From: Verrucomicrobiaceae bacterium
GTDB taxonomy: Bacteria; Verrucomicrobiota; Verrucomicrobiia; Verrucomicrobiales; Verrucomicrobiaceae
Direction: 5' to 3'
Length of the DNA stretch: 64,000 nt
NCBI GenBank assembly: GCA_947458455.1
Contig: CANGYJ010000001.1
Location: forward strand, 558,001-622,000
Both the position numbers and the translations under genes were made by a program. Every line of letters starts with the position of its first letter. The stretch's first letter is position 1. This document shows, one piece after another, positions 13,963 to 41,740 of the stretch. The notes under the pieces were generated by a model. It was not told the DNA's origin. It did no database searches and was given only the letters and a program-made list of their open reading frames with translations.

Positions 13963-14205
13963 CGCACGATCATGGAACACCCCGCCGAGGAACGCCAGCA
14001 GGGATTCCAAGGCGGCCGCTACCCCAACAAAAACGTTTACCGCTACTCCCGTGACAAGAACGACCTCCAGTGAATGTCATGGAAAATACTGCATGCAGGA
14101 AATTCGTGTCCGTCTATAGAGTGGCACCTCCCGCCACATTATTACACCCAACTGTTTGTAATGCTTAACGCCACGGCCACAACCTCACGGCCACCTGTTC
14201 CACTC

Positions 14206-15516
14206 ATGTCGAGAGGCCTTGTCGCAGCCCTCTTGCTACTTACCCTTTTTCAGGCCAGTTCCTCCGGCCAAGACACTGGCCGTTTGATCCCGCAGATCGA
14301 TTCGCTTCTCGGCAGTCCCTCCGTCCTCGTGCCGGGAAACCCAATGCTGGCCACGGACTCAGCGACCACTGAGCAGCCAACCAAATCCGCTCCCTACCAA
14401 TCCTCGGATGGGCCCTGGGGGAAGCTCATGGGGGATTATATCTACTTGGAGGCACCGCCGGCCCTCGTGGAAGGCTTTGCCCTGCCCAGCACCCAGACGC
14501 GATGGACCTTACCCGCCACCAGCGAAGCATCCATCCCCAAGGTTTTTGCCGACGCCGGACTCAGCGAGGACCAAATCAAACCCCTCATTGCCAGCCTCGT
14601 CCGGGAGGGCGAATACGTTCACATCCTGCCAACCCTCGATTTTGTTAGCAACCTCCCCACCGGCATTCGCGCTGCGATTTACAAGGAACTCGCCAAAGTA
14701 TCTTCCAATGAATACCATGTGGACCCCGTGCTGATCTTTGGCACTTCCATTGAGGAATGGTACCGGACCAGCAAGCTCCGCCCCGAGCTCATCCAGAAGA
14801 TCAAGCAACTAAGCTATGTGCGCGGAGAAACCATCGCGTTCAGCGACATTCCTGTCCTGCTCAACTTTGCTCAATCGGATTCGGAAGCGCGTCTCATCTT
14901 CAAGGCCTGCACCCGCACGCGATCCCTCATGATCCGCCTCCAGCTCGATAAAAACACCAACGTGACGGATCTGCTCTCTTACTGGTCATTCGGCGTCGGT
15001 ATCCGCCGCAAGGACATCGAGCCCATCATCCAATCCATCATTGAATCAGACACGCTGAAGGATCTCGGCCTCTCCCACATCCTGCCCGCTCAGCCTCGCA
15101 AGCTGCTCTACACCTACCCAGGTCTCGACATGGCAAAAAACGGCCTCCTCCCAGACTGTCATTGGACGAGCCTGAACTTTTATAACTTCGACCCTCATCA
15201 ATACCTCCTCGATTCCCGCCTCGCCACGAGCCAGGTCCTCGAAAACTTCATCCCCATTGATGCCCCCTACCAGTTTGGCGACATCCTGTTCTTCCTCGAC
15301 AATGCCACGGGTGACGCCTTCCACTCCTGCGTCTTCCTCGCTGACACCCTTGTTTACACCAAGAACGGCCGAAACCTCCTCTCCCCATGGGTCATCATGA
15401 CCATTGAAGATGTGAAAAAGGTGTATCTCTTCCGTGGCAATGGCCGAGTGCAAGGATTCCGCCGCAAGGACATCCACGATGCACGTCAAAATGCAGCGGC
15501 AAACGCCGCCAAGTAA
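14206..15516 (+). CDS. Secreted protein with possible NlpC/P60-like C-terminal domain
   Basis: 436 residues from the ATG at 14206, which begins a good Sec signal (MSRGLVAALLLLTLFQ); ATGs at 14161 and 14074 are alternatives that add leader residues. The N-terminal half is helical and unrecognised. The C-terminal part has Cys318 in LLPDCHWTSLNF, then FGDILFFL, then His373 in DAFHSCVFL, and a strand VYTKNG. This order resembles a papain-like NlpC/P60 or DUF1175-type fold. Enzyme activity is not proved. Confidence 0.6.
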   Translation: MSRGLVAALLLLTLFQASSSGQDTGRLIPQIDSLLGSPSVLVPGNPMLATDSATTEQPTKSAPYQSSDGPWGKLMGDYIYLEAPPALVEGFALPSTQTRWTLPATSEASIPKVFADAGLSEDQIKPLIASLVREGEYVHILPTLDFVSNLPTGIRAAIYKELAKVSSNEYHVDPVLIFGTSIEEWYRTSKLRPELIQKIKQLSYVRGETIAFSDIPVLLNFAQSDSEARLIFKACTRTRSLMIRLQLDKNTNVTDLLSYWSFGVGIRRKDIEPIIQSIIESDTLKDLGLSHILPAQPRKLLYTYPGLDMAKNGLLPDCHWTSLNFYNFDPHQYLLDSRLATSQVLENFIPIDAPYQFGDILFFLDNATGDAFHSCVFLADTLVYTKNGRNLLSPWVIMTIEDVKKVYLFRGNGRVQGFRRKDIHDARQNAAANAAK

Positions 15517-15614: not shown

Positions 15615-16826
15615 TTACGACGAAGCCTCGGCAATAATTTTGACCAGCCGTGGGCAAAGCACCGAATGCGAAAACTCAGCTCCGAGAGCCTGTGCGGCGG
15701 CATTCGGCGGCTGCGGCCCACAAGCAGCTGCGGAGCGTATTTCCGCGAGGATGCGATCCACCTCCCCGTGCTGAGCCAGGCGGGCGTAAGCAGGATCATT
15801 CAAACGGCGCACGATGTCGCCGCCATGGCTTTGCTCCGGCCCAACGAACAACAGCGGAATGCCGAGCGTGAGGATGTTGTAGATTTTGCAGGGATGCACG
15901 ATGCCGACGAAAGGATCGCCCATCACGACGAGATGCAGGTCCGCACTGGAGAGCGAACCGGAAAGCTCCTCCATCGGCTGGTAAGGCAGTGAGGTGATAT
16001 TCGGCAGCGCTTTGCCCTTTTGAAACGCCTGCACCTTCTTGAACTCGCTACCACCGCCGACGAAGAGGAAGTGGATGTGATCCTCGCCCTTCAGGGCCGC
16101 AGCCGCCGCCAGCACCGTATCGAGCGGATGGCAGGGGCTGTGATTGCCCGAGTACATGACGATGAACTTGCCGGAAAGCCCATGCTTAGCCCGAAAGGCC
16201 TCGCGAGCCGGTGGATCGAAGCGCACCGCCTGATCGTGAGACCACGGCGCATCCGTGTGGATGACCTGCGGATGCACCCCTTTGGCGATCAAGCGATCCG
16301 CCATGAAGCGATCCAGCGCGATGATCCGCGCCGCCTGCCGGAAGCTCCAGTTTTGAATGAAGGTCAGTGTGCGCTCCACCACCCCGCCCGCTTTGAGCCA
16401 GCCAGCCGCCACGGCTTCATCAGGATTGAGGTCCATCACCCACGGGACCACGGCACCGCCTTTGAGTTTCGCCGCCACCGTGCCGAGCGTGGAGATGAGC
16501 GGCGGTGAGGTGAGGCACACTGTCACATCATGCCGTGGCATGAACAGAAGGATGCGGGCCGCATTCAGCCAAAAGAGGCCAAAATCCACCAACCGACGCC
16601 ATTTGGCCTTTTTACCCAGCCCCGGCGTCCAGATGCGATGGATGTCGATACCATTCCAAAACTCCCGCACCGGGAAACGCCGTGTGGGATCATCGTAACC
16701 TCGGCTGGATGCCACGGCGGTGACTTCATGCCCTGCCTCCGCCAGTCCCACCGCGAGATCGGTGAGGTGCTGGGCCGTGGACACATGATCGGGGTGGAAG
16801 CACTGATTGATGAGGAGGACTCGCAT
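15615..16826 (-). CDS. Glycosyltransferase family 4 (WbuB-like)
   Basis: 403 residues from the ATG at 16826; the frame is open further upstream, but that part runs into the terminator. The N-terminal Rossmann half is VLLINQCFHPDHVSTAQHL, typical of WbuB/WbuB-like GT4 enzymes. The C-terminal half has YSGNHSPCHPLDTVL and VHPCKIYNILTLGIP, the donor-binding region. It transfers a nucleotide-activated sugar during surface polysaccharide assembly. It is the last gene of the polysaccharide locus and has its own terminator on each side. Confidence 0.88.
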   Translation of the reverse strand: MRVLLINQCFHPDHVSTAQHLTDLAVGLAEAGHEVTAVASSRGYDDPTRRFPVREFWNGIDIHRIWTPGLGKKAKWRRLVDFGLFWLNAARILLFMPRHDVTVCLTSPPLISTLGTVAAKLKGGAVVPWVMDLNPDEAVAAGWLKAGGVVERTLTFIQNWSFRQAARIIALDRFMADRLIAKGVHPQVIHTDAPWSHDQAVRFDPPAREAFRAKHGLSGKFIVMYSGNHSPCHPLDTVLAAAAALKGEDHIHFLFVGGGSEFKKVQAFQKGKALPNITSLPYQPMEELSGSLSSADLHLVVMGDPFVGIVHPCKIYNILTLGIPLLFVGPEQSHGGDIVRRLNDPAYARLAQHGEVDRILAEIRSAAACGPQPPNAAAQALGAEFSHSVLCPRLVKIIAEASS

Positions 16827-16854
16827 GACAATGTTGGTAGCGTATTGAAACAAA

Positions 16855-16882
16855 ACGGGCCGGAGGTCAATCTCCGGCCCGT
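16855..16882 (-). terminator. Intrinsic terminator after the GDP-mannose 3,5-epimerase gene
   Basis: ACGGGCCGGAG (16855-16865) pairs perfectly with CTCCGGCCCGT (16872-16882) across a 6-nt loop, followed on the minus strand by TTTTG. It separates the epimerase from the GT4 gene. The stem shares nine bases with the terminator at 15556. Confidence 0.75.
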
Positions 16883-16911
16883 GTGACATCGCCCAGAAAG
16901 GGTGAACTGGC

Positions 16912-17901
16912 TTAGCGGGACTTTGCCCCGGCTTTGATCTCGTCGTGGACCCATTTGTAGGTCAGCTCCAGGCCATCGCGAAGGCGAGTGGAGGGCTCCC
17001 AGTTGAAAACGGACTTGATCAGCGTGTTGTCACTGCTGCGGCCGTTGACACCTTTGGGTGCTCCGAGGTTGTAGCTGCGCTTCAATTTCACGCCGGCGAT
17101 CTCCTCGGCGATATCGACGAGTTGATTGATGCTGACCATTTCGGCACTGCCGATGTTGATGGGCTCCACGAAGTCGCTGTTGAGCAGCATCTGAGTGCCG
17201 TAAACGCAGTCGGTGATATACATGAAGCTGCGGGTCTGATCACCGGTGCCCCAGATTTCGATCTCATGTTTGCCAGAGATCTGCGCGAGGGCCACCTTGC
17301 GGCAAACGGCGGCAGGAGCCTTTTCACGACCTCCGTCCCAGGTGCCGTGTGGACCATAAACGTTGTGGTAGCGAGCGATGCGGGTCTTGAGGCCAAAATC
17401 CTCGCGGAAGTGGCGGCACATGCGCTCGGAGAAGAGTTTTTCCCAGCCATAGCCATCTTCAGGGAGGGCGGGATAGGCATCCGCTTCCTTGAGGGCGGGG
17501 ATGTTGTATTCCTTCTGCTTGTCGCCGTTGTAAACGCAGGCGGAGGAGGCGTAGAAAAGGCGTTCGACGCCTGCATCCTTGGCAGCCATGCACATGTGCG
17601 TGTTGATGAGAACGGTGATCATGCAGAGGGCCTTGTTGTTTTCGATGAAGCCCATGCCTCCCATGTCGGCGGCAAGGTTATAGATCGTTTGAGCGCCCTT
17701 GGCCGCGACGCGACAGTTTTCGAGCAATGAAAGGTCCAGCACATGGTTTTCGACGTCGTCGAACTTCTGATACCATTCATCGAAGGGCTTGATGTCGATG
17801 GCACGAATGCGTGTGTGCCCTTTGGCACGGAGATCGGCGACGAGCGCGCCTCCAATAAAGCCGCCGGCTCCGGCGACGGTGATCAGATTGTCTTGAGTCA
17901 T
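16912..17901 (-). CDS. gme: GDP-mannose 3,5-epimerase
   Basis: A 329-residue extended short-chain dehydrogenase/reductase. The NAD motif is AGAGGFIGG. Residues matching the catalytic set known from the plant enzyme are all present: Cys122 (YASSACVY), Tyr151 and Lys155 (YGWEK), Lys194 (GGREKAPAA) and Arg288 (GVNGRSSDN). It would convert GDP-D-mannose to GDP-L-galactose and GDP-L-gulose. The enzyme is best known from plant vitamin C synthesis; bacterial forms are uncommon but reported from Verrucomicrobiota. It shares the GDP-mannose pool with gmd in the same locus. Confidence 0.9.
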   Translation of the reverse strand: MTQDNLITVAGAGGFIGGALVADLRAKGHTRIRAIDIKPFDEWYQKFDDVENHVLDLSLLENCRVAAKGAQTIYNLAADMGGMGFIENNKALCMITVLINTHMCMAAKDAGVERLFYASSACVYNGDKQKEYNIPALKEADAYPALPEDGYGWEKLFSERMCRHFREDFGLKTRIARYHNVYGPHGTWDGGREKAPAAVCRKVALAQISGKHEIEIWGTGDQTRSFMYITDCVYGTQMLLNSDFVEPINIGSAEMVSINQLVDIAEEIAGVKLKRSYNLGAPKGVNGRSSDNTLIKSVFNWEPSTRLRDGLELTYKWVHDEIKAGAKSR

Positions 17902-17949: not shown

Positions 17950-18717
17950 TCAGCGAGTTTTGCCAATCTTTTTTTCCAGAAGGCGGAGCGAAAGCATGAT
18001 CTCGGCAAGGGTGCGCTGAAAGGCATAAAACCAGCCGTGCGGCCCGTCGAGGACCGTGCGGCGTGCGAGGAGTGTGTAGAGGAAAACGACGATAGGGCCA
18101 AGGATCATCGTGCGACGAATCCGATCCTGTAGGCTGAACTGGATGAGGGCGGTGAGCTTTTCGGACTCCAGCTTGGCGTATTTGTCCTGCGAGGAAAACC
18201 AGCGACTGAGCGGCTTGCGGTCATCGTGATCGATTTGGGTCATGAGATGAGCGGTGGGGCCGGGGATGCTCAAAATCTGCGTGTGACCATCGGGCACATA
18301 ACGGCAGCGGTCTTTGCGAAAGAGCACCGCACGCGGTGGGTAAAGGCAGGCGCGAAGAGCCTTTCCGAAGATCAAATAGCGAAACGAGGCGTAAAAGGCA
18401 TCGCTGGCAGTGGCTTCATCGAGTTTGCTGAGTTCATCCTCGAAACCGGAGCACAAGACGTAATCGCAATCCAGAGAGAGAATCCAGTTGGTGGAGGCGG
18501 CATCGACGCCGAAATTCCACTGCGTGGTGTGATCATCGAAGGGGCGGACGAGGAGTCGAGTATTCGGAAACTCGGTGGCTATGGTCGCAGTGGCATCGGT
18601 GCTGCCGCTGTCGAGAATAACGACTTCCCTGGCCCAACGAAGACGCTCCAGGCAGCGCCTGAGGTTAGGCTCCTCATTCCAGGTGAGGACGAGAGGTGTG
18701 ATGGCATCGAGTTTCAC
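17950..18717 (-). CDS. Glycosyltransferase family 2
   Basis: 255 residues starting at a GTG (18717). A GT-A fold is shown by PLVLTWNEEPNL, VVILDSGSTDAT and the metal-binding SLDCDYVL. A hydrophobic stretch near the C-terminus (MILGPIVVFLYTLL) suggests membrane association, as in WaaE/KdtX-like GT2 enzymes. It lies 1 bp behind the upstream GT4 gene, so it is in the same transcript. Confidence 0.88.
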   Translation of the reverse strand: MKLDAITPLVLTWNEEPNLRRCLERLRWAREVVILDSGSTDATATIATEFPNTRLLVRPFDDHTTQWNFGVDAASTNWILSLDCDYVLCSGFEDELSKLDEATASDAFYASFRYLIFGKALRACLYPPRAVLFRKDRCRYVPDGHTQILSIPGPTAHLMTQIDHDDRKPLSRWFSSQDKYAKLESEKLTALIQFSLQDRIRRTMILGPIVVFLYTLLARRTVLDGPHGWFYAFQRTLAEIMLSLRLLEKKIGKTR

Positions 18718-18718
18718 A

Positions 18719-19891
18719 CTAGTTTTTCAAGACTTCGCGATACAGGTTTTGCAACGCTTTGCCCATCGCTGGCAGCGAGTAATCGCAGCGGGCGAGGATG
18801 CGGGCCGATTGGCCAAGGAGGTGGCGCTGCTCGGGTGAATCAAGCAGTTCTTCAAACTTCGCGGCGATGGCGGCAGGCTCACGGGCGGTGAGGAGTACAG
18901 CCTTGTCTTTGACAGTATCAGCGGCTAGTGCCACCTCATCGGTGGAGAGGCATGGAAGTCCTGCAGCCATGGCCTCAAGGAGGGCGATGCCGAAATTTTC
19001 GGAGTGCGAGGGTAGCACAAACAGCTCCGCAGCCGAAAAGGCGGCAAGGCGAAGCTCACCCGTGACTTGGCCGGCCCAAGTGATGCGTGTAGCGATACCG
19101 CGCGAGATGGCCTGAGCTTGCAATTTCTCGATGAGGGGTGGATGACCTCCGCCGCAGATAAGGAGGTGGATGTCCGGGCGATGCGGGGCGATACGGGCAA
19201 AAGCATCAATGAGGAGGTCGATGCCTTTTTTCTCGTCGATGCGGGAGAGGAAAAGGATGTTCCGGGTGTTGGAGGTCTCGGGAAAACGAGCGCTGAAGAC
19301 CTCGCGAGGTGGCAGAGCATCGAAGGGCGTAAGATCCATGCCGATGGGAATCACCCGCTGGAGGTTCTTTAGGCCAAAACGGGCGGCGTCCTCCATTTCC
19401 ATGCGGCTGGTGTAATGCATGGCAGCGGCTTTGCGGAGCATTGGTAGATCGAAAAAGTGGAAGGAGAGTGCTTTGACGAACTTCCGGCGGTTTTCCATGC
19501 CCCAGCGGTTGAGCACGCCGAGCGGTCTCACGATGTAAGGCACGCCTGCGGAGGCCGCAGCTCGTCCGGCCGCTAGGCTGGCAAAAGAAAACACAGCGTG
19601 GATATGCACGGCATCAAACTCGCTCACATGAGCCCGCAGCCAGCTTCGCAGCGGCAGACTGCATTTGTAGAACTCCGTCTGCTTGCGGAAGTAGATGGTC
19701 TCATAACCTTCCTGCCGAGTGATTTTGCCCAAGGTGATGCTGGGGAGATGCTTTCCACATCCGTCGTCATCCGTCGCGGCAGCAGTGACCTGGACGTCGA
19801 ATGCAGAAAGCGCATTCGCCATGGCCGGGAGGGCAAAACTAGGCCCGCCAGAACTCGGCGAGAGTGAGGGGATAACGTGCAGGACACGCAT
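18719..19891 (-). CDS. Glycosyltransferase family 4
   Basis: 390 residues. The N-terminus HVIPSLSPSSGGPSFALP is typical of the acceptor domain. The C-terminal donor domain has FLSRIDEKKGIDLLIDAF and the E-x7-E block SENFGIALLEAMAAGLP. It uses a nucleotide sugar with retention of anomeric configuration. The ATG shares one base with the stop of the asparagine-synthase gene (TGATG), so the two are translationally coupled. Confidence 0.9.
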   Translation of the reverse strand: MRVLHVIPSLSPSSGGPSFALPAMANALSAFDVQVTAAATDDDGCGKHLPSITLGKITRQEGYETIYFRKQTEFYKCSLPLRSWLRAHVSEFDAVHIHAVFSFASLAAGRAAASAGVPYIVRPLGVLNRWGMENRRKFVKALSFHFFDLPMLRKAAAMHYTSRMEMEDAARFGLKNLQRVIPIGMDLTPFDALPPREVFSARFPETSNTRNILFLSRIDEKKGIDLLIDAFARIAPHRPDIHLLICGGGHPPLIEKLQAQAISRGIATRITWAGQVTGELRLAAFSAAELFVLPSHSENFGIALLEAMAAGLPCLSTDEVALAADTVKDKAVLLTAREPAAIAAKFEELLDSPEQRHLLGQSARILARCDYSLPAMGKALQNLYREVLKN

Positions 19892-21705
19892 CAGGCAGCA
19901 GGAGAAAGGCCACGCTGCTCAAACCAACGGTCGAGCATGAAGACGGCCCACGATTGATACCAGCTTGGATTTTTGACTGGGAGGCGGGCATTCGTCTGCT
20001 CAAACATGCCTCCCCAGGTGGTTGCGGCCCACTTTTGGTAGGGGAACAAGAAGCCACGCTTGGGCTGATTGACGACCCACTCGGGAATCTCGGGCAACGC
20101 CTCGAGTAGCAGTTTTTTTCCTTGGCGCAGACGGCTTGCGGAGGGGATGTGTGCAATGGTCTCAAAGAGAGTGCGATCCACGAAGGGCACTCGCAGCTCG
20201 AGTCCTTGAGACATGCTCATCACATCGCTGTCCTTGAGGAGCTGATTACGCATGTAGAGGGAGAGCTCGCAGAGACTCACCTCATCTCTTGGCGTGGGAG
20301 CCGAATTGCTAGGTGCCTCCTCAAGACTGGAACGAATCAATTCAGAGAGTGTCACCCCGGCGTAACGTGTGGCGAGGATGCGAGCGGCGCGGCGGGAGAA
20401 AATGCCGCGGAAAGCGCGGTAGGCATTCCGCACGGTGTTAGCGGATTGAAGGAAGGCTCCCACACGGCGCAGACGGTGGGAATCCGTATGGTATTCCAAC
20501 TTCACGCCGATATGGTGGCGTATGCCCGGAATGAGATCGAGCATGCTTGCCATCTGCACCATTCGAGGCACCTGAGTGAAGCTGGGATAACCAGCGAACA
20601 TCTCATCCCCTCCGAGACCACTGAGAACGACTTTGATCCCTTTTTCGCGAGCAAAGGAGGAGACGGTGAAGGTGTTAAACCCGTCGATGCTGGGCTGATC
20701 GATGTGCTGGATGTATTCCTCAAAGCATCGTTTACCCGCTTCCTCGCCGAGGACGAGTTCGTGGTGATCAGTGCCGAAGTGCGCGGCCGTGCGGCGTGCC
20801 ACGCTGCTTTCATCCAGCCCAGGATCATCCACGCCGATGGAGAAGGTGGAGATGTCTTTGATGCCGATCTCACGAGCGAGTGCCACAAGAGCGGTGCTAT
20901 CCACCCCGCCACTCAGAAAGATGCCCACGGGCACATCACTGACGAAATGCCTGCGAGTGCTTTCGAGGAGGGCGTCACGGAGGGTAGTGGAGGGTTTTTC
21001 CGAGGTAGAGGTCTCCACGGGGAACTGGATGCGCCACCAAGCGTTGTTCTCGATGACGCCGTTACGCCATTCGAGGCAGTGCCCGGCCGCCAAGCTGCAG
21101 ATGCCTTGAACCAGCGTACGTGGTTCTGCCACGCTGCCGCTCTCAAAGTAGGACATGAGTGCCTGCGCATCGACCCCCGCACTGCCAAAGCCAGCCTCAT
21201 GAAGGGCACGAAGCTCGGAGGCAAAGGCAAAGACACCACCTCGGTTCGAGTAGTAGAGCGGCTTGATGCCGAAGGGATCGCGGGCTAGGAAACAGGTTTG
21301 CTCCAGCTCGTCCCAAATGGCGAAGGCAAACATACCGCGAAGTTTATCGAGCATGCCCTGGCCGTATCGTTCATAGAGACGCAGAAGCACCTCGGTATCC
21401 GTGCTCGTTTGGAAAGGCACACCGTCTTGCTCGAATTCGGCCCGAAGCTCGCGAAAATTGTAGATCTCCCCATTGAATGTGATGGTGAAGCGACCGCCTG
21501 GCAGTCCCATCGGCTGGTGACCCGCAGCGGAGAGATCGAGAATCGAAAGGCGAGTGTGGGCAAGGCGGGCCACGCCGGAGGGAGAAGACCAAGCACCGCG
21601 ATCATCTGGCCCACGATGTTTCAGAGCGGCTTGCAGCACAGCGAGACGCCTATCGGCATCCGATAGGGAGCTACTGAGATCTAGAATGCCAGCGATACCG
21701 CACAT
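19891..21705 (-). CDS. asnB: Asparagine synthase-like amidotransferase
   Basis: A 604-residue glutamine-hydrolysing asparagine synthase type. The N-terminal nucleophile Cys2 (MCGIAG) begins the class II glutaminase domain (to about 190). The synthetase domain carries the PP-loop SGGVDSTALV near 255 and GGDEMFAGY. In surface-polysaccharide loci such proteins may amidate a sugar acid rather than make free asparagine, but both are open. It is the first gene after an AT-rich promoter-like stretch. Confidence 0.9.
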   Translation of the reverse strand: MCGIAGILDLSSSLSDADRRLAVLQAALKHRGPDDRGAWSSPSGVARLAHTRLSILDLSAAGHQPMGLPGGRFTITFNGEIYNFRELRAEFEQDGVPFQTSTDTEVLLRLYERYGQGMLDKLRGMFAFAIWDELEQTCFLARDPFGIKPLYYSNRGGVFAFASELRALHEAGFGSAGVDAQALMSYFESGSVAEPRTLVQGICSLAAGHCLEWRNGVIENNAWWRIQFPVETSTSEKPSTTLRDALLESTRRHFVSDVPVGIFLSGGVDSTALVALAREIGIKDISTFSIGVDDPGLDESSVARRTAAHFGTDHHELVLGEEAGKRCFEEYIQHIDQPSIDGFNTFTVSSFAREKGIKVVLSGLGGDEMFAGYPSFTQVPRMVQMASMLDLIPGIRHHIGVKLEYHTDSHRLRRVGAFLQSANTVRNAYRAFRGIFSRRAARILATRYAGVTLSELIRSSLEEAPSNSAPTPRDEVSLCELSLYMRNQLLKDSDVMSMSQGLELRVPFVDRTLFETIAHIPSASRLRQGKKLLLEALPEIPEWVVNQPKRGFLFPYQKWAATTWGGMFEQTNARLPVKNPSWYQSWAVFMLDRWFEQRGLSPAA

Positions 21706-21789: not shown

Positions 21790-24093
21790 TCACGGTCGCC
21801 AACTGGAAACTACCTCACAGGAGGTGCGAATGAAATTCTGCGCCCCTTTTTCGATTCCTTGCATGTGGACAGAGTTCAAAGCCGCCTGCTGCATGGCCGA
21901 AAAAGACTCCTCAGGAAGGCTCAAAGCCTGCCGCATGACCGTGGCTAAGCTTTCAACATGCCCCGCTTTCACGAGCCAGCCATTGTGCCCCGGCGCGATG
22001 AGGTCAATGGCGGCCCCGGTTTGATCCGTGGCAATGGAGGGCAGCCCCGCTGAGAGCGCCTCCACGAGAGCGAGGCCCCAGCCGTCGTAGCGCGAGGGAA
22101 GGCAAAAGATGTCTCCTTTGGCGTAAAAGCGAGGCAGTTCTTCCCAAGGCTGAAAGCCGCAGCATTCCACACGATCCGCCACCGGCGCGAGTATCTCCCG
22201 CACCTTCGTTTCCAAGGGACCACTACCCACTAGGACAAGCCGCGTATTCGGGTATTCAGCCGCTACCTTAACGAAGGCCATGGCCAGCACGTCTGACCCC
22301 TTGCGCTCAGAAAGCGTGCCGGAATAGACAAAGGTCCTCGCACCGGGAGGTGAGGTGGTTCGGGGAAGCTGGAAGCGGGCGAGCTCGGAATAGTAGGGCA
22401 TGTTGTAATAGCTCCGTTTTTGGCCAAACTCGACACGATAGCCCTCAATGCCAAACTGCCCCACACCCCAGATCGGTGCGAGATAGCGGTGCAAAGGTTT
22501 CAAAGCCAGCCAGCGGAACCAAGTGCCGGTGGCACCTAGTTGCAGAAAGCCGGGGCGTTCTCCCCAGAACGCCCAAGGCTGGCCGGTGGCAGCTCTGGCA
22601 CGGATGGACCGCCAAGCAAAGCGGCTCGTATAGTAATTAAAAACAGCCAAATCAGCATTCAGGAGCGAGTCGATGGCATTACTTGCTAGATGCGGCGTCT
22701 CGGAGAGGATGATGTGGGAGTGAGCGATGTCCGGCGCAGCCCACTGGCGGTTTTTATCGCGGTGAGTCAGGTAAACAACCTCCAGATGACAATCCCCCAC
22801 TGCCGCCACACGGTTAAAAAACTCCACCTGATAAGGGGAATTGAGCTGGGTGAGCACGGCAATGCGGGGCTTACGTCCCGCCGCAGCCTTGGGAAGGCAT
22901 TGGGGTGGCCGTTGAGGCACGCTGACGCCTACGGAGCTAGATTTTTCAGGTTCCACCAACGGCCGCACCTCTTCGATGAGCTGGCGTTTGAAGGACTCAA
23001 AACCAAAACGCTCCTTCACCGCTGTCGATAGAGCCGCCGGGTCATCGAGCAAGGCGTTGCCCGTCGTTTTTTGCAGCACCGAGAGGATGGCATCTGCGAT
23101 ACCCGCCGGGTGGTGCGGATCAATGAGCATGCCTAGGCGGCCCCCATCCAGCGCATCGTAAGAGCCATCGAGAAAGCCGCCAATAACCGGCTTGCCGCAA
23201 GCTGAGGCCTCCAAAAACACGATGCCAAAGCCCTCTTTCGTGCTGGGCATCACAAAAGCATCACAAAGCCGGTAATAGTCCGCCAGATCCTCGGTGGAAA
23301 CAAAGCCAGCAAACGTCACATGCTTCTCCAAACCCAGCATGCGAACCCCAGCCCGCAGGTGCGAGAGCTCATCTCCAGTCCCCACGACGAGATAATGCAC
23401 ATCTGGGATCTGCAGAAGGATTCGTTTGAGGGCGATCAGCACTTGCCAGTGGCCTTTGTAACGCTCAGAAAGGGCTAAACGGCTCACCGTAAGGAGCACC
23501 GGCTGGTCTGGCCGCAGTCCATACTTTTGCAGCAAATGCGCTGGTTTAGGCCCCGGCACAAAACGAGCGGCATCAAAAGTATTTGGAAATACCGAGACAC
23601 GCTCCGGAAAAACGCCGCCCTCACGCACCACATGATCCCGCGTGAACTGGCTCACTGCAAGGAGCTTATTTGCCTCCTGCATGGCACGCAGGCGAATCCT
23701 GGAGCGGATACGCCAGGCCTCGATGCCATGCAGCACTCCGCCATAAGGCACCCCAGTGAGTCCACGCATGACTCGCATCGCGGGGAAAAAGTGCAGATGC
23801 GTCGAGAGTAAGCAGGCGGGCCGCTCCCGCAGCGCGTGGAAGGAAGCCTGGGCAGCTAGCGCCATCGAGCGCACTTTGGAGGGAAGGTTTTCGAAGGAAT
23901 GGAGGTCCAGCCCCTGCGCTAGAGGCGTGTCTACAGGTGCCAGTGTCTCATTTCGCACAAAGACCCGCATCGGGCGGTCAGGGTAACCCTCACGCAAGGC
24001 CTTCACAAAGAAGCGCGAAAAGGCCTGAATGCCGCCGGTGTCATCCCGGATGCCAGGCGCCCAAATGTGGATGGGTTTCAAAGAACCACTCAT
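21790..24093 (-). CDS. Bifunctional glycosyltransferase with two GT4 domains
   Basis: 767 residues, twice the usual GT4 length. Domain 1 (about 1-370) ends with STKEGFGIVFLEASACGKP. A linker follows, then domain 2 (about 405-760) starts at PRIAVLTQLNSPYQ and has VYSGTLSERKGSDVLA and DGWGLALVEALSAGLP. The halves are only distantly alike, so this is a fusion of two different enzymes, not a recent duplication. It would add two successive sugars of the repeat unit. Confidence 0.9.
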   Translation of the reverse strand: MSGSLKPIHIWAPGIRDDTGGIQAFSRFFVKALREGYPDRPMRVFVRNETLAPVDTPLAQGLDLHSFENLPSKVRSMALAAQASFHALRERPACLLSTHLHFFPAMRVMRGLTGVPYGGVLHGIEAWRIRSRIRLRAMQEANKLLAVSQFTRDHVVREGGVFPERVSVFPNTFDAARFVPGPKPAHLLQKYGLRPDQPVLLTVSRLALSERYKGHWQVLIALKRILLQIPDVHYLVVGTGDELSHLRAGVRMLGLEKHVTFAGFVSTEDLADYYRLCDAFVMPSTKEGFGIVFLEASACGKPVIGGFLDGSYDALDGGRLGMLIDPHHPAGIADAILSVLQKTTGNALLDDPAALSTAVKERFGFESFKRQLIEEVRPLVEPEKSSSVGVSVPQRPPQCLPKAAAGRKPRIAVLTQLNSPYQVEFFNRVAAVGDCHLEVVYLTHRDKNRQWAAPDIAHSHIILSETPHLASNAIDSLLNADLAVFNYYTSRFAWRSIRARAATGQPWAFWGERPGFLQLGATGTWFRWLALKPLHRYLAPIWGVGQFGIEGYRVEFGQKRSYYNMPYYSELARFQLPRTTSPPGARTFVYSGTLSERKGSDVLAMAFVKVAAEYPNTRLVLVGSGPLETKVREILAPVADRVECCGFQPWEELPRFYAKGDIFCLPSRYDGWGLALVEALSAGLPSIATDQTGAAIDLIAPGHNGWLVKAGHVESLATVMRQALSLPEESFSAMQQAALNSVHMQGIEKGAQNFIRTSCEVVSSWRP

Positions 24094-24114: not shown

Positions 24115-25098
24115 TTATCGCCCGGCACTCAGGCGTGCCAGATCCGCGTCCACCATCCGATGGACCATCTCTTGAAAAGGTGTCGTGGGCTTCCAGCCCA
24201 CCTCGCGCTCGATTTTCTCCGCGCTGCCACAAAGTGGGATGCCCTCCTCCGTCCGGTAAAAGGCCGGATTCGTCTCCACATGCGCCTTCCAGTCCAGGCC
24301 CACATGGGAAAAGGCCGCCTCGCAGAGGTCTGCCACGCTGTGCAGCACGCCGGTCGCCACGACGAAGTCCTCAGGCTTGTCATGATTGAGGATGGCGTGC
24401 ATCGCCCTCACATAGTCAGGCGCGTAACCCCAGTCCCGCCTTGCCTCCAAATTGCCGAGTTGGATTTTTCCGCGGCCCTCCAGGGAGATGCGGGCGGCGG
24501 CCATCGTGATCTTTCGCGTCACGAACTCCGGCCGACGGCGCGGGCTCTCGTGGTTGTAAAGGATGCCCACGCCGCAGAACATGCCGTGAGACTCACGGTA
24601 GTTCCTCACGAGGTGATAACCGGCCAGCTTGCTGATGCCATAGGCGCTTCGTGGCATAAATGGCTCATCCTCCGACTGCGGTGTGTGGCCTGGTCGGCCA
24701 AACATCTCGCTTGTGCCGGCAAAATAGAACCGACAACCCGGATGGAACTCCTGGATCGCCGCCAGCAGGTAGTGCGTGCTGGCGATGTTGTTCTGGATCG
24801 TCTGGTAGCCATCCGCCAACCGCTCGCCCACAAAGCTGGAGGCGGCGAGGTGGTAACACTCATCAAACGGGGTTCGGGAGATCAGGCGGTAAAGACCCGG
24901 GAAGTTATCGAGATTCACCGCATGCAGATGGCAACGCTGGTAAAGCTCCGGCGGCACATCCTGAAGCAGGTTGCTCTTGATGTGCTCCAGCCCGGTCTGC
25001 CGGGCGAGACCATGCACCTCGTAACCGAGTCCAAGAAGATACTCCGCCAAATAGAATCCATCCTGGCCGGTGATGCCGGTGATGAGCGCTTTTTTCAT
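24115..25098 (-). CDS. gmd: GDP-mannose 4,6-dehydratase
   Basis: A 327-residue SDR enzyme turning GDP-D-mannose into GDP-4-keto-6-deoxymannose. The NAD(P) motif is TGITGQDGFYL, typical of Gmd rather than RfbB. AGTSEMFG carries the catalytic Ser/Thr, YGISK the Tyr-Lys pair, and NHESPRR and RRDWGYAPDYV are the substrate-binding signatures. The reductase or epimerase that would finish GDP-fucose, rhamnose or perosamine (Fcl, Rmd, Per) is absent from the window. Confidence 0.93.
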   Translation of the reverse strand: MKKALITGITGQDGFYLAEYLLGLGYEVHGLARQTGLEHIKSNLLQDVPPELYQRCHLHAVNLDNFPGLYRLISRTPFDECYHLAASSFVGERLADGYQTIQNNIASTHYLLAAIQEFHPGCRFYFAGTSEMFGRPGHTPQSEDEPFMPRSAYGISKLAGYHLVRNYRESHGMFCGVGILYNHESPRRRPEFVTRKITMAAARISLEGRGKIQLGNLEARRDWGYAPDYVRAMHAILNHDKPEDFVVATGVLHSVADLCEAAFSHVGLDWKAHVETNPAFYRTEEGIPLCGSAEKIEREVGWKPTTPFQEMVHRMVDADLARLSAGR

Positions 25099-25128: not shown

Positions 25129-25168
25129 CTCATGGTTTGACTAGTCTTGACTGGCTTTGACTGCCCTT
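25129..25168. repeat. Short direct repeats of TTGACT
   Basis: Three TTGACT units (TTTGACTAGT, CTTGACTGGC, TTTGACTGCC) with about 10-11 bp spacing, in the gap between gmd and the next gene. They could be a repeated regulator site or a chance microrepeat. Confidence 0.35.
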
Positions 25169-25838
25169 AGGGTTTTTTCGCCTCAATCAACAGCGTGTGC
25201 GGAGATTCCGGCGTGCTTTCCCATTCGTGGGACATCACCTGGCTGTCATAAATCGCGGGATCACCCGTCCCGGTGATCGGCTGCACGACCCGGACGTCCT
25301 TGAAACCCGCCTCCGTGGCGATTTCCTCCAAAAAGCTCGGCGTGAGGATGGTGAGGTGCTCTTGACGGCAAAAGACGAAGTTTTCAAATCGCCCGCCAAT
25401 GGAACTGCGGGAGTCCGGGAAGTCGGAGAACCAGGCCGAGTTGCCCGCGACATACTCGCGCATCGCCGCATCACCGTTCGGTCCGCCCACGCGGATCACC
25501 CCGCCTGGCTTCAGCACCCGGTGCAGCTCGCGGAAGTGCGTCGGCAGATCTGGCAGATGCTCGATCACATGGTGGGAGTAGATCGCGTCGATGGAGTCAT
25601 CGCGGAAAGGCAGGTGCTTCGAGATGTCCGACCACACATCGCACTTCGCGGTGAACATGTTCGCGTCCACATTGATCCAGCCGTCCAGGTAGTGGCGCTG
25701 CCCGGGGCCCAACTGCACACGGATCGTGCCCGGATTCCGGGACGCGGGTGAGCGAAAAGCTTTGTAGAACACGCCATTGAGCCGCATGAGCGGTCCGGCG
25801 ACACGATAGAAGAGATCTTTGGCCTGACGGGTAAGCAT
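25167..25838 (-). CDS. Class I SAM-dependent methyltransferase
   Basis: 223 residues, Methyltransf_11 type. After a variable N-terminus with QRHYLDGWINVD come DAIYSHHVIEHLPD and LHRVLKPGGVIRV, typical of type 11 methyltransferases. Motif I is degenerate, as is common in polysaccharide-locus members. Probably an O-methyltransferase acting on a sugar of the repeat unit (inference from context). Confidence 0.8.
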   Translation of the reverse strand: MLTRQAKDLFYRVAGPLMRLNGVFYKAFRSPASRNPGTIRVQLGPGQRHYLDGWINVDANMFTAKCDVWSDISKHLPFRDDSIDAIYSHHVIEHLPDLPTHFRELHRVLKPGGVIRVGGPNGDAAMREYVAGNSAWFSDFPDSRSSIGGRFENFVFCRQEHLTILTPSFLEEIATEAGFKDVRVVQPITGTGDPAIYDSQVMSHEWESTPESPHTLLIEAKKP

Positions 25839-25850
25839 GAGGAAAACAGG

Positions 25851-26612
25851 TTAAACAGGATCACACCAAGCCGCCGCGCCCCACAGGGGACCGCGATTCT
25901 CGCCGAAGGTGCCGTTGATGTCATTGATCTGGTAGCCGAAGTCGGTTTTCAGCCGTTGCAGCGCCTCCCACTCGGGCGCGGCGGTGCTGGAGGCATGCAC
26001 CTCCATGTAAATCATCGGGCGGTGGTTGCGCAGTGTCTGCTCAGCGCCTTTGAGCACCTCGGCTCCGGCCCCTTCCACGTCGATCTTGATCAGGTCAGGC
26101 TTGGGCAGGCCGGTCGAGACGAGGTGGTCCAGCGTGTCGCACTGCACCTCGAACTGGTTCGTCCACTTTTCCAGCTTAGCGATCTTGTCGGCAAAAGTGC
26201 CCATCGTGTGCCCCTGGGTGTCGTAGCAGAACTGGCGTGGCCGGTTGTCCGCAGCGAGAGCCAGCTTGAAAGGCTTCACATTGGCGGCGGAAGGGTTGAG
26301 GCTGAGGTTTTTTTCCAGAAGAGAGAAATTGTCCGGTGCTGGCTCGAAGGAGAAGACTTTCCCCGAAGGCCCCACGAGGCGGGAGAAATACAGCGCCATC
26401 TGGCCGCGGTTCGCACCCACATCATAGACCACGCTGCCCGGCTTCACCTTCTCCACGAGAAAGCTCTGATTCATCGCATCCACAGCCCAGGCGTAGGTGG
26501 CACCCATGCCGGGCGAGACCACAAAGCGGACGCCGGAGATCGGGCCACGACGCACGGTGCGCACGGAGCCATGAGGGTAAATGAGGCGGATCAATTTGTG
26601 TTTCAGGGACAT
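25851..26612 (-). CDS. FkbM-family methyltransferase
   Basis: 253 residues from the ATG at 26612, which overlaps the stop of the upstream GT2 gene by 10 bp. FkbM hallmarks are seen: VVYDVGANRGQMALYFS (motif I), VFSFEPAPDNFSLLEKN, and LIKIDVEGAGAEVLKGA. It probably O-methylates a sugar or a glycan end. One of three or four FkbM-type genes in this locus. Confidence 0.88.
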   Translation of the reverse strand: MSLKHKLIRLIYPHGSVRTVRRGPISGVRFVVSPGMGATYAWAVDAMNQSFLVEKVKPGSVVYDVGANRGQMALYFSRLVGPSGKVFSFEPAPDNFSLLEKNLSLNPSAANVKPFKLALAADNRPRQFCYDTQGHTMGTFADKIAKLEKWTNQFEVQCDTLDHLVSTGLPKPDLIKIDVEGAGAEVLKGAEQTLRNHRPMIYMEVHASSTAAPEWEALQRLKTDFGYQINDINGTFGENRGPLWGAAAWCDPV

Positions 26613-27532
26613 GCAGTTGGAGAGGATAAGACGGGGAGCGTTGAAAGGGGCCGGGGCCGCAGGCGCAGAACGAACCAGCTCACTAGGGAACGGTAGGAGA
26701 CACGGGCAATTTCGCTGCGGCGGGCCAAAAGGTGGCTGGGAATCAATTGAATGCCAGTCCAGACGCCGTGGGGCCAGCCGGAGCTGATGACATAGATCAC
26801 CCGTCGCAGGACCTGCCAGAAACCCGCCGGCCACATCAGCACCGGATAGCGTAGGTAGGGCAGCAGAGCCATATTCGCGATCACCGTGGCATTGGAATGG
26901 GCACTCACCTCCACGGGAGGCGGCTTGTCATGCTTCACATGCAGGTCCGGCGCATGCACGATCACCCCGCCGAGGGCGTGCAGTTGTAGGCTGATGTCCG
27001 TCTCCTCCATGCCATAGGCGATAGGTAGCGGCACAAAACCCCGCGTCTTGGCATGCCAGCTCTTGCGAAAGATGCAGCCGCAGCCGGAGCTGACCGCGAT
27101 GGCATGCGGTCCGGGCATCGCCTTCTCAAAGTCCTGGCTCGCCGCACTGTACATCGCCGCTTCTGGGAATTCCCGCGCCAGCCGCAGCACCCGGGCAAAG
27201 TAGTCCGGCTGGTCCGGGAAGGAGTCATCGTCAAAATTCGCCACCAGTTCGTGCTGGGCCGCCGCGATGAGGCGGTTCCGCGCCCCGCCAGGGCCGAGCA
27301 GGTGATCACTGACGAGCACGCGAATCGCCGGAAAGTGCTCACTCATCGCCGCCAGGATGGCCGAGCTGCCACCATCTGCATGCACCAAGATTTCTTCCGG
27401 GGTCGGTTCGCACTGCTGGATAATGGCTAGCGTTTTCAAGAGGGCCTCAACACGGGCACAGGCAGGCACGATGGCCGTGATGGGGCACAAGGAACGGGAC
27501 TCGGATGAGGCGGATGGCGGGGAGTTCAACAA
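26603..27532 (-). CDS. Glycosyltransferase family 2
   Basis: 309 residues. There is no in-frame ATG near the N-terminus, so the start is a TTG (27532, or the next codon 27529). The GT-A fold has ITAIVPACARVEALL, then LGPGGARNRLI, and the metal site ANFDDDSFPD. MEETDISLQLHALG is the ED-type catalytic region. The C-terminus carries a hydrophobic stretch. It is translated into the FkbM gene with a 10-bp overlap. Confidence 0.85.
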   Translation of the reverse strand: MLNSPPSASSESRSLCPITAIVPACARVEALLKTLAIIQQCEPTPEEILVHADGGSSAILAAMSEHFPAIRVLVSDHLLGPGGARNRLIAAAQHELVANFDDDSFPDQPDYFARVLRLAREFPEAAMYSAASQDFEKAMPGPHAIAVSSGCGCIFRKSWHAKTRGFVPLPIAYGMEETDISLQLHALGGVIVHAPDLHVKHDKPPPVEVSAHSNATVIANMALLPYLRYPVLMWPAGFWQVLRRVIYVISSGWPHGVWTGIQLIPSHLLARRSEIARVSYRSLVSWFVLRLRPRPLSTLPVLSSPTACP

Positions 27533-27559: not shown

Positions 27560-28996
27560 TCAATTCGTGCCAGGTGACAATTTCGGCGCATGCACCGGCA
27601 CGGCCTGGGGGCGGTTGTAGCGGCGCTTCACCAGCGGCTCCAGCAGCATGGAGAAGGCCAAGCCGTTCACGGCGAAGAGAAGGATGTTGGCCGTGTGATT
27701 GTAAATGACACCCATAATCATATAGGGCGTGCTAACTGCGGCTGCCATCAACAGAATGGGACTGTAAACCGGGTCACGGCAGCGGAAGAATACGTTCCAC
27801 ACACAAAACAGCAGAATGATTCGTATGCCATACCAGGCCATGGCAGAGATAGGGCCTACCTCCACGATGATCTGCCCAACCTCCTGGTCATACACCGGAC
27901 ACTTCTTTTTCGAAGCGGGAATCTTTAAGGCACGCCGCATACCGTCCGAGGCTGGGTGAGCCATCCCTATGCCGAAACCCATGATACCTCCATCCTTCAC
28001 CGACTGCTGGATCGACCACAGGGGATGCTCCACCGCTCGATACATGACGTTATCGTTCGATACCATGGCTCGGGTCGAGAACATGGAATAAGCCTCGAAG
28101 AAAAAGTAAGCCCCACCAACCACACAAGCCGCTACCCCGGCACTGAGCACCCAGGTGAAATTCTTGGATGCCACCAGCCGCCCGGACATTGAGGCGAGAA
28201 GGAAGGCAATCACGATCAGGCCGATGGTGTACATGGAGGATCGTGAACCATTCATCAGGGCATTGGATGCCAGAAGCGGCAGCGCGATGAAGGTGAGCAC
28301 CCACTTGAAACGTGTTTGAGGAATGGCAAGCAGCGCGATGCACAGCGTGGAAAAGAAGACCACGAAGGTACTGTGGCCGGTAATGTAGGAAAAGGTGCCG
28401 GTGATACGCACTTTCTCACCGAAGCCGAAGCCGCTGATATTCTCCGCTGAAGATTGGGCGTAAACATTCAGCGGGCTGGAAGCCCCAGCTTTGAATTGGA
28501 GAACTCCCAAAATGCAGATCGGGATGGCCAGCATCGCAAACCAGGTCAATTGCCGCACCATCTCGTCTCTGGTTCGGAAAAGATAGGGCATCATGAAGAC
28601 CAGCGGCACATAATAGAGGTAGATTTTGACTCCGTAGAGCGCCAGCAGGACGGAGCCAATGTTCGGGTTAAGCGCTGGCGGGAATAGCAAGGCGCCAAAC
28701 ATGCATAGGATCATCACCGGCAGGTTCAGCTTGTAGGAGCGCACGTCCATGTCCGGCGAGATCATGAATTTGAGGTAGGCCCCGAAAAGGAAGATGTCCT
28801 TGAGGAAGTAAACCAGCTCCTGAGCTCCCGGCATCAACCACTTGCGGATGGCACCTTCAAACAGCGCGATGATCAAGGCCACCTTGACCGCCGCCCGCCA
28901 ATTCGAGTAAGACCACAGGGTCACGACAGACATTCCGAGCAGACCGTAGGTGGCCAGCTCCATCGTGGTCATTTTGGCAGCGAAAAGGAAGCTCAT
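27560..28996 (-). CDS. O-antigen polymerase/ligase-like membrane protein
   Basis: A 478-residue protein with about ten hydrophobic helices and a longer periplasmic loop near 320-370. It starts with a short soluble N-terminus then repeated membrane segments (YGLLGMSVVTLW and others). The topology and locus position fit a Wzy polymerase or WaaL-type ligase, families that show almost no conserved sequence. It lies 82 bp after a GT4 gene. Assignment rests on topology and context. Confidence 0.7.
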   Translation of the reverse strand: MSFLFAAKMTTMELATYGLLGMSVVTLWSYSNWRAAVKVALIIALFEGAIRKWLMPGAQELVYFLKDIFLFGAYLKFMISPDMDVRSYKLNLPVMILCMFGALLFPPALNPNIGSVLLALYGVKIYLYYVPLVFMMPYLFRTRDEMVRQLTWFAMLAIPICILGVLQFKAGASSPLNVYAQSSAENISGFGFGEKVRITGTFSYITGHSTFVVFFSTLCIALLAIPQTRFKWVLTFIALPLLASNALMNGSRSSMYTIGLIVIAFLLASMSGRLVASKNFTWVLSAGVAACVVGGAYFFFEAYSMFSTRAMVSNDNVMYRAVEHPLWSIQQSVKDGGIMGFGIGMAHPASDGMRRALKIPASKKKCPVYDQEVGQIIVEVGPISAMAWYGIRIILLFCVWNVFFRCRDPVYSPILLMAAAVSTPYMIMGVIYNHTANILLFAVNGLAFSMLLEPLVKRRYNRPQAVPVHAPKLSPGTN

Positions 28997-40453: not shown

Positions 40454-41740
40454 TCAAACCACAGGCGGCAATGGTTTTACTGCTGAGATGTCTCGACAGA
40501 GATTCATCCAAGCATAGCCGAGAGCCCATAGAAACGGGGGTAGAAGCGCAAGCCCGGTCATCAGAAGCACCCCAGACACCGTGTGAAGATCGGCCACCAG
40601 CACCGCCACTACATATCCAACCAGTGTGAGCGGGATATTCAGCCAAGAAAGACTCACCCAACCACGCACCTGCATAAACGTCCAAGTAACCCCGCTGATC
40701 ATACCAAGCCCCTGTGCAGCAAAAGCCAGCGGTAGTTCCTGCCCGAGATGAGAGTAGAGGCCTCCTAGAATCCACAAAAAAGGTCCCGGCATAAGCCAGG
40801 ATGTGGCGATGACCGCTAGCACCGCGCCCAGCGTCCCTAAAATTGAGACAATGAACTTGGTCCGAACCAACACCGGGCATTTGGTGGATGCCACGTTTGG
40901 CAAGACTAGGTAGTGAAACATGGCTCCAAAGATCGAGAAGAAGACGGTGAGTCTCGAAAGCGCCCCAATGTCGGCAATCTCGGTCACCCCGGAGGTGAAG
41001 GAAATGATCCACGTCGCGATCTGTCCCTGAACGCAGAAGAAAATGTGGTTCGCGTAAAGTGCCCGCACAAAGCCCCAGACCTCCGCTCGCTGGACGTCCG
41101 TGCCTGGGGCCATAGCCGTCACGCGACTTACGCCCCGGCGTGCCAGCCACGCATGCAAGCCGATGGAAGCCACCGTGGCAAGGAAGGCGGGATACACCTG
41201 TCGCCAGCCGACCAAGAGCACAATGGCCGTAAGTCCGCAGCGCAGAAGTGCGCCGCTGAGTTCCATGATTTGCGTGCTTTTGAGATGACCAGCGATGCGC
41301 AGCGTCACCGGCAGGAACTTGGAACTCGTCACCGGCCAAAGCATCACCGCAGCGGACCCCACCACCAACGCCGCCATGCCAGGAGACATCTGCGTGCGTG
41401 TGAACAGGATATAAAACGGCGGCAACGTGAGCACCAACGAAAGCAGCGCCAGCCGATTGCGCACCGAAAGGCAGGCATCCGCCACCTGGGCGAGCGCCGT
41501 TTTGTCCCCCACCACCCGACCGGACATTGCCGTGATCGCCGTGGCGATACCGCCATCCGCCAGCAGGCCGATGGTGGCGAGCAAAGAGCCGCAGATCGTC
41601 AGCCAGGCATACTCGTCCTTCGGCATCCAGCGCACCAGCATCAAGCCCGTAACCGCGCCGATGCCCTGCACGCCCACTTGCGTGAACAGCACACCACTGG
41701 CCTGCACGGCCCAGTGTTGAATTTTGTGTCGAAGACTCAC
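40454..41740 (-). CDS. Wzx-like polysaccharide flippase
   Basis: 428 residues starting at GTG 41740. The sequence is dominated by about twelve hydrophobic segments in a MOP/MATE-type arrangement, with an amphipathic N-terminus (HKIQHWAVQASGVLFTQVG). The role would be moving lipid-linked units across the inner membrane. Sequence similarity in this family is low, so the call rests on topology and locus. Confidence 0.75.
   Translation of the reverse strand: MSLRHKIQHWAVQASGVLFTQVGVQGIGAVTGLMLVRWMPKDEYAWLTICGSLLATIGLLADGGIATAITAMSGRVVGDKTALAQVADACLSVRNRLALLSLVLTLPPFYILFTRTQMSPGMAALVVGSAAVMLWPVTSSKFLPVTLRIAGHLKSTQIMELSGALLRCGLTAIVLLVGWRQVYPAFLATVASIGLHAWLARRGVSRVTAMAPGTDVQRAEVWGFVRALYANHIFFCVQGQIATWIISFTSGVTEIADIGALSRLTVFFSIFGAMFHYLVLPNVASTKCPVLVRTKFIVSILGTLGAVLAVIATSWLMPGPFLWILGGLYSHLGQELPLAFAAQGLGMISGVTWTFMQVRGWVSLSWLNIPLTLVGYVVAVLVADLHTVSGVLLMTGLALLPPFLWALGYAWMNLCRDISAVKPLPPVV

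Follow-up and report, generated by a model that had tools for sequence, protein, structure and literature searches.

The window, a stretch of 64,000 nucleotides from a member of the Verrucomicrobiaceae, carries on its minus strand a run of genes that extends from 47494 to 15615 in codon-model gene calls and comprises several glycosyltransferases and methyltransferases together with an asparagine-synthase-like protein, a gmd-like gene, rmlB and rmlA, which bears out the first-pass annotation in its description of a glycan locus. Near the end of this run lies the gene under study, correctly delimited in that annotation and located on the minus strand, which encodes a GDP-mannose 3,5-epimerase (GME), and directly downstream of it on the same strand follows a gene for a WcaI-like glycosyltransferase (GT). 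The features are, in order of position:

15615..16889, minus strand: WcaI-like GT4 glycosyltransferase, proposed L-galactosyl/L-fucosyl transferase (PF13579/PF13439, NF007640, TIGR04007)
16912..17901, minus strand: GME (PDB phmmer E 5.8e-95, catalytic residues, tree, predicted-structure matches)
17950..18717, minus strand: family 2 glycosyltransferase, upstream neighbour of GME (PF00535)
18719..19891, minus strand: HpsP-like GT4 glycosyltransferase (NF038295, 265 bits, under the cut-off of 550)
19891..21705, minus strand: asparagine-synthase-like amidotransferase (TIGR01536, 443 bits, over the cut-off of 267)
21790..24093, minus strand: 767-aa protein with two tandem GT4 domains (PF00534 in two stretches)
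24115..25098, minus strand: gmd-like GDP-mannose 4,6-dehydratase (PF16363, E 1.4e-102; nearest solved structure 1rpn, E 2.9e-82)
25167..25838, minus strand: class I methyltransferase (PF08241)
25851..26834, minus strand: FkbM-family methyltransferase (TIGR01444, over the cut-off)
42953..43975, minus strand: RmlB, dTDP-glucose 4,6-dehydratase (TIGR01181, 479 bits, over the cut-off)
44778..45665, minus strand: RmlA, glucose-1-phosphate thymidylyltransferase (TIGR01207, 416 bits, over the cut-off)

The gmd-like protein scores 295 bits against TIGR01472, under the cut-off of 415, and the FkbM-family methyltransferase probably has its true start near 26612. With two GT4 modules in one chain, the product of 21790..24093 is a fused pair of transferases. 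The gene at 27560..28996 has no match in Pfam or NCBIfam and the one at 40454..41740 has none in NCBIfam; we suspect a candidate polymerase and flippase in these two. On the opposite strand, a protein of about 390-480 aa without a Pfam match (14074..15516, plus) adjoins the GT, and no relative of it was found at E 1e-5 among the other loci compared.

The GME frame is intact, starts with ATG and encodes 329 amino acids; the plus-strand frame at the same coordinates contains a stop. In a phmmer search of the PDB the top matches were the GMEs of Myrciaria dubia (8sg0, E 5.8e-95) and Arabidopsis (2c59, E 5.7e-93), and the next family after the plant enzymes was GDP-L-fucose synthase (Fcl) at E 7.8e-26. 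The sequence is 46.8% and 48.7% identical to two plant chains over 312 and 310 columns, as against 23-24% to the five nearest of eight Fcl rows. All five catalytic residues named in the first-pass annotation, Cys122, Tyr151, Lys155, Lys194 and Arg288, align with those of the plant enzyme, and none of them varies among the 135 distinct bacterial GMEs examined; this includes the catalytic cysteine (C145 in plants) with its Tyr-x3-Lys motif, present here as C122, Y151 and K155. The eight Fcl rows have the cysteine, the tyrosine and Lys155 in common with GME, but all carry His at 194 and Lys at 288, so that the catalytic base Lys194 and Arg288, the arginine beside the cysteine, mark the window protein as a GME; Lys/Arg versus His/Lys at these two positions is the distinction between the families drawn in section 6 of PMC8787198. 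Trp153 is present in all 135 bacterial GME rows, and both plant chains have Leu in its place.

A tree of plant and bacterial GMEs, which the first-pass annotation had named as a check that might refute its reading, was calculated from 85 of 143 full-length rows in a partly random selection and did not refute it: the tree placed Fcl outside at 100/100 and nested the two plant GMEs among the bacterial ones, with support of 89/87 for the joining branch; the split between GME and Fcl is a long branch with full support. The predicted structure (pLDDT 87.6) retrieved only GME chains at PDB ranks 1-14, with TM values of 0.84-0.88 by query. The best curated bacterial model for the protein is that of GDP-L-fucose synthase, NF047922, and a misannotated Fcl or other NDP-sugar epimerase might be suspected on that account. 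We consider this hardly credible, as the score of 107 bits falls far short of the cut-off of 500, and a wrongly annotated Fcl is ruled out by the Lys194/Arg288 pair, by the two levels of identity and by the long, fully supported branch. As residues, tree and predicted structure agree, it is near certain from this sequence-derived evidence that the gene belongs to the known family of true GDP-mannose 3,5-epimerases, and the plant-type GME with a full catalytic set that the first-pass annotation had described is confirmed.

That annotation also held the family to be known from bacteria already, in agreement with the sections of PMC6678494 at hand, and called its sugar products rare in bacteria, a statement that has to be limited. 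GME is patchy in its distribution: 44 of 189 genomes of the order have it, with 11 in the window's genus as far as sampled, as do 54 of 387 in the phylum, and going by record titles it also occurs in several further phyla. At least 558 confirmed relatives emerged from a scan of genome contigs, of which 80 were kept. Among the matches listed, the nearest named ones, up to 96% identical, come from Verrucomicrobiaceae and Prosthecobacter metagenome-assembled genomes (MAGs), and the titles include Verrucomicrobiota, Acidobacteriota, Pseudomonadota, Planctomycetota, Gemmatimonadota, Chloroflexota and others, with the caveat that MAG titles can be wrong. The window's own genome holds one GME, the next of 11 matches being only 25% identical.

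A functional pairing of GME with the gmd of the locus, as proposed in the first-pass annotation, did not hold up. Gmd yields a 4-keto-6-deoxy sugar for Fcl-type or Rmd-type enzymes, and GME does not use this sugar as a substrate. The gmd-like gene of the window lies six gene calls from the GT, and a gmd of its type occurs within six genes of the GT in only 2 of 59 relatives. On these grounds of pathway and gene order we dropped the link; the gmd-like enzyme is a separate branch from GDP-mannose, apart from GME, and the likely partner of GME is instead the WcaI-like GT directly downstream.

This GT scores 119 bits against the WcaI model NF007640, not reaching the cut-off of 276, and 63 bits against TIGR04007. 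Its GT-B fold of family GT4 is supported by PF13579/PF13439 and by the PDB matches of its structural model, which are GT4-type enzymes with MshA in first place. The listed frame comprises 424 aa, but most orthologues align from residue 20-22 onward, and in the model, with an overall pLDDT of 89.8, residues 1-6 and 11-17 fall below 50, so that Met22 (16826) is probably the real start. When ten related GTs were scanned, eight from beside a GME and two from beside an Fcl, the WcaI family was the best NCBIfam model in every case, and two of them, L222 and L225, passed its cut-off. Gene order suggests that GTs of this kind may use GDP-L-fucose.

As the GT is far commoner in the window's genus than GME, we examined the neighbours of the GT in genomes where GME is absent. 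A set not selected through GME consisted of the 46 genomes, among 189 searched, in which a GT orthologue reached 450 bits or more. Here GME lies immediately upstream of the GT in 13 genomes, with gmd-fcl in addition in one of them (G090); another 17 lack an intact GME and have fcl close by, immediately upstream in 15; one has gmd alone, and in 15 neither module is adjacent. Eleven of these last 15 have Fcl elsewhere and no GME, G004 has both elsewhere, and in G033, G079 and G131 a GME is found elsewhere and Fcl was not detected. A larger collection of 59 distinct GT orthologues, enriched for GME since part of it had been fetched through GME, was searched for GME, fcl, gmd, rmlA and rmlB. The gene immediately upstream is an intact GME in 23 cases, a GME remnant in one and fcl in 15; within six genes there are 27 GMEs (one of them the remnant), 20 fcl and 22 gmd genes of two types, and neither rmlA nor rmlB was found within this distance in any of the 59.

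Individual loci illustrate the exchange. L042 and L149 have the genes downstream of the GT in common, and the gap between fcl and GT holds a GME in L042 and 38 bp in L149; the gmd of L042 scores 556 against its NCBIfam cut-off of 415, and its fcl is just under the cut-off with 487 versus 500. In L179 the order is fcl, gmd, a GME remnant that matches residues 251-328 of a relative, and GT. The remnant (L179:10357-10581, minus strand) is C-terminal and sits between gmd-fcl and the GT, a case of a lost GME next to intact fucose genes. In L265 (G532) gmd-fcl follows the GT, and GME was not detected anywhere in the genome; the GT of L039, a locus with both modules, is 90% identical to the one in L265, from which the family 2 GT that adjoins in L268 is absent.

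As evidenced by the GT tree, which comprises 58 of the 59 rows after exclusion of those under 380 aa, GME-linked and Fcl-linked GTs are interleaved, and the partner of the GT has changed repeatedly. In a five-state coding the minimum is 14 changes for the GME label, at least eight of which well-supported branches make unavoidable, and eight for the FCL label; counts as low as these arose in 43 of 500 label shuffles for GME and in none of 500 for FCL. A two-state coding of supply, with 49 rows, gives a minimum of seven changes. The histories of GME and GT differ: the GME of L038 is sister to that of the window (100/90), yet its GT groups with Fcl-linked GTs (99/95).

Gene content in the 59 genomes of the window's family is in line with an association of the two genes. 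Of the 44 GT-bearing genomes 17 have GME, and of the 15 that lack the GT none does (Fisher p 0.003, relatedness ignored, and absence being uncertain in incomplete genomes). Among the nine genomes without a detected Fcl, all six with the GT have GME and none of the three without it does (p 0.012, again with relatedness ignored), and G537 is a seventh genome with GT and GME in which Fcl was not detected. Either Fcl or GME is found in 44 of 44 genomes with the GT versus 12 of 15 without.

Within the GT, position 72 in the numbering of the window protein, chosen after inspection of the alignment columns, is Phe in 19 of 21 GME-supplied and Tyr in 27 of 28 Fcl-supplied GTs in a comparison that left out L181, L085, L112, L094 and L111; an earlier residue comparison had left out L180, L184, L179 and three loci with both modules. 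The window GT has the residue of the GME-linked type, and Phe is also found in L162, L167 and L170, with GME elsewhere in the genome and no Fcl. Six further Fcl-only genomes have Tyr in five cases and Phe in one, L265. Exceptions are L048 and L184, GME-linked with Tyr, and L180 and L265, Fcl-supplied with Phe; L179, with its GME remnant and intact gmd-fcl, has Phe. A sign test on independent pairs found about 3.6 concordant and 0 discordant of five and was not significant (p at least 0.125), and GT residues that track the donor, position 72 included, are suggestive only.

On a wider scale, 135 distinct GME loci were searched with a model of these GTs. In 34 of them a WcaI-like GT adjoins GME on the same strand, 24 times downstream and 10 times upstream of GME; the other 101 have none adjacent to GME. 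The upstream cases include alphaproteobacterial records and genomes of family f8, in which all six GME-bearing genomes have the pair, and the two f8 GTs tested were over the WcaI cut-off. We take the f8 genomes to be Methylacidiphilum-like, because their GME is 51% identical to that of Arabidopsis in L222 and L224, and a value of 50.5% is given for the published enzyme in the portion of PMC6678494 available. Among 71 close downstream neighbours of GME there are 25 with GT4 N-terminal domains, at least 16 GTs of the WecG/TagA type and four with a ManC domain. In many loci with Acidobacteriota titles, among them L101 (10946-11698), L083 and L110, a WecG/TagA/CpsF-type GT (PF03808) directly follows GME and is a further candidate for the enzyme that uses the GME product; GME products can thus feed other transferases. 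A ManC-type gene directly after GME, in L089 (11034-12476), L070, L102 and L066, three with alphaproteobacterial titles and one titled Bryobacterales, places GDP-mannose synthesis and epimerisation side by side. A link of the WcaI family at large to GME or Fcl is not general, for of the 16 genomes with strong members among 288 from the phylum, 12 have neither gene nearby.

We propose, with a probability of about 0.6, that GME makes GDP-L-galactose and that the GT adds L-galactose where relatives add L-fucose, a switch of donor that draws on gene order and gene content, with the exceptions noted. The GDP-mannose would be supplied by a ManC-type enzyme whose gene lies in another part of the genome; judging by its sequence, an ORF of 360 aa on contig C7, which scores 280 bits and stays under the cut-off of TIGR01479, can provide it. 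With NAD, GME would oxidise GDP-D-mannose at C4 through Tyr151/Lys155, invert C5 and C3 by means of Cys122 and Lys194, and re-reduce C4 to yield mainly GDP-L-galactose. The WcaI-like GT would then move L-galactose onto the polysaccharide or lipid-linked repeat built by the locus, presumably destined for the cell surface. L-fucose is 6-deoxy-L-galactose, and a single glycan position would accordingly receive L-fucose or its 6-hydroxy form, L-galactose, depending on whether the slot beside the same GT holds gmd-fcl for GDP-L-fucose, GME for GDP-L-galactose, or both.

Two points favour L-galactose over L-gulose in this analysis: relatives have the L-fucose pathway in the same slot, and characterised GMEs yield mainly GDP-L-galactose (PMC8787198). 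A GT that transfers either sugar according to supply would be the simplest account of the gene exchange, and such an exchange of donors has a precedent, since the same source describes fucosyltransferases that take GDP-L-galactose in vitro and the replacement of L-fucose by L-galactose in the Arabidopsis mutant mur1. Note that one chain of rhamnogalacturonan II is truncated in mur1, so that the replacement is not always complete (PMC4935801). More tentative, and in our estimate somewhat short of an even chance, is the wider idea that the WcaI-like GT lineage forms a natural L-fucose/L-galactose switch, in which strains swap gmd-fcl for GME, a single hydroxyl of the surface polysaccharide is changed and a few GT residues follow.

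The main rival to the donor switch regards the GT as no more than a fixed gene at the edge of the locus, next to which sugar-nucleotide genes become inserted, and has a different transferase of the locus use the GME product, GDP-L-galactose or GDP-L-gulose. The GT does end the variable locus, with downstream genes that are conserved in many relatives, and its slot might be a mere recombination boundary; the many GMEs elsewhere that adjoin WecG/TagA-type GTs, and the 12 of 16 strong WcaI-family GTs without GME or Fcl nearby, point the same way. An insertion point of this kind, however, fits poorly with a slot that held only the GDP-mannose-derived enzymes GME, Gmd and Fcl and in 59 cases never rmlA or rmlB, with GT and supply that track each other across genomes, and with a GT of the same type that adjoins GME in distant lineages, there also in reverse order. 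We judge this explanation unlikely, if deserving of serious consideration.

Still less probable, to our mind, is that the GT adds L-fucose in this organism with Fcl acting in trans, and that the L-gulose, D-altrose or L-galactose supplied through GME serves a minor or separate purpose. The genome does contain three Fcl matches, on contigs C17 and C6, so that the GT of the window could receive GDP-L-fucose, the locus has its gmd-like gene, and GMEs are known to yield GDP-L-gulose and GDP-D-altrose as well (PMC8787198). Six GT-bearing genomes of the family, however, have GME and no detected Fcl, and the residue at position 72 of the window GT is of the GME-linked type.

A real donor switch would name a bacterial transferase for GDP-L-galactose and explain the role that GME, an enzyme annotated in many bacteria, has in these genomes; to our knowledge this would be the first bacterial L-galactosyltransferase family. 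It would also mean that a shift between L-fucose and L-galactose, for which the examples to date are plant mutants and in vitro work on fucosyltransferases, has arisen by evolution, and would offer natural pairs of GTs in which to find what sets the choice of donor, as well as enzymes for the synthesis of L-galactosides.

In the open-licence literature that we found, no bacterial transferase using GDP-L-galactose in a polysaccharide is named, no paper deals with an L-galactosyltransferase in bacteria, and no report describes an exchange of gmd-fcl and GME beside one GT. What has been published, in the sections of PMC6678494 at hand, is a bacterial GME with a possible role in LPS together with a neighbouring GT; new here is that the likely partner of GME is the downstream WcaI-like GT, which adjoins gmd-fcl in relatives. 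The enzyme of that study, GM35E of Methylacidiphilum fumariolicum, comes from the same phylum and belongs to the same family as the window GME, to which it is about 50% identical as judged from the Methylacidiphilum-like rows L222-L224 and L221, and a glycosyltransferase was described as its adjoining gene and a role in LPS proposed (PMC6678494). In the Methylacidiphilum-like loci the GT precedes GME, whereas in the window it follows. BlmG of bleomycin biosynthesis and the GME of A201A, likewise bacterial homologues for L-gulose or L-galactose donors and compared here by their description in PMC6678494, belong to antibiotic clusters and not to polysaccharide loci.

The plant enzymes (Arabidopsis 2c54/2c59/2c5a/2c5e and Myrciaria 8sg0/8skb) resemble the window GME in catalytic set and fold at 47-49% identity, but they serve ascorbate and the cell wall, while the window protein is bacterial and lies in a polysaccharide locus; they also differ in the Leu that replaces the bacterial Trp153. 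The colanic-acid cluster of E. coli (gmd, fcl, WcaI), whose gene order we take to be gmd-fcl-gmm-wcaI, similarly ties a WcaI-type GT to an L-sugar pathway derived from GDP-mannose. In colanic acid, wcaJ, wcaE and wcaI act early, and fucose is added in steps two and three (PMC12075129). The window GT, in contrast, is distantly WcaI-like, with 63 bits against TIGR04007, and GME takes the place of gmd-fcl.
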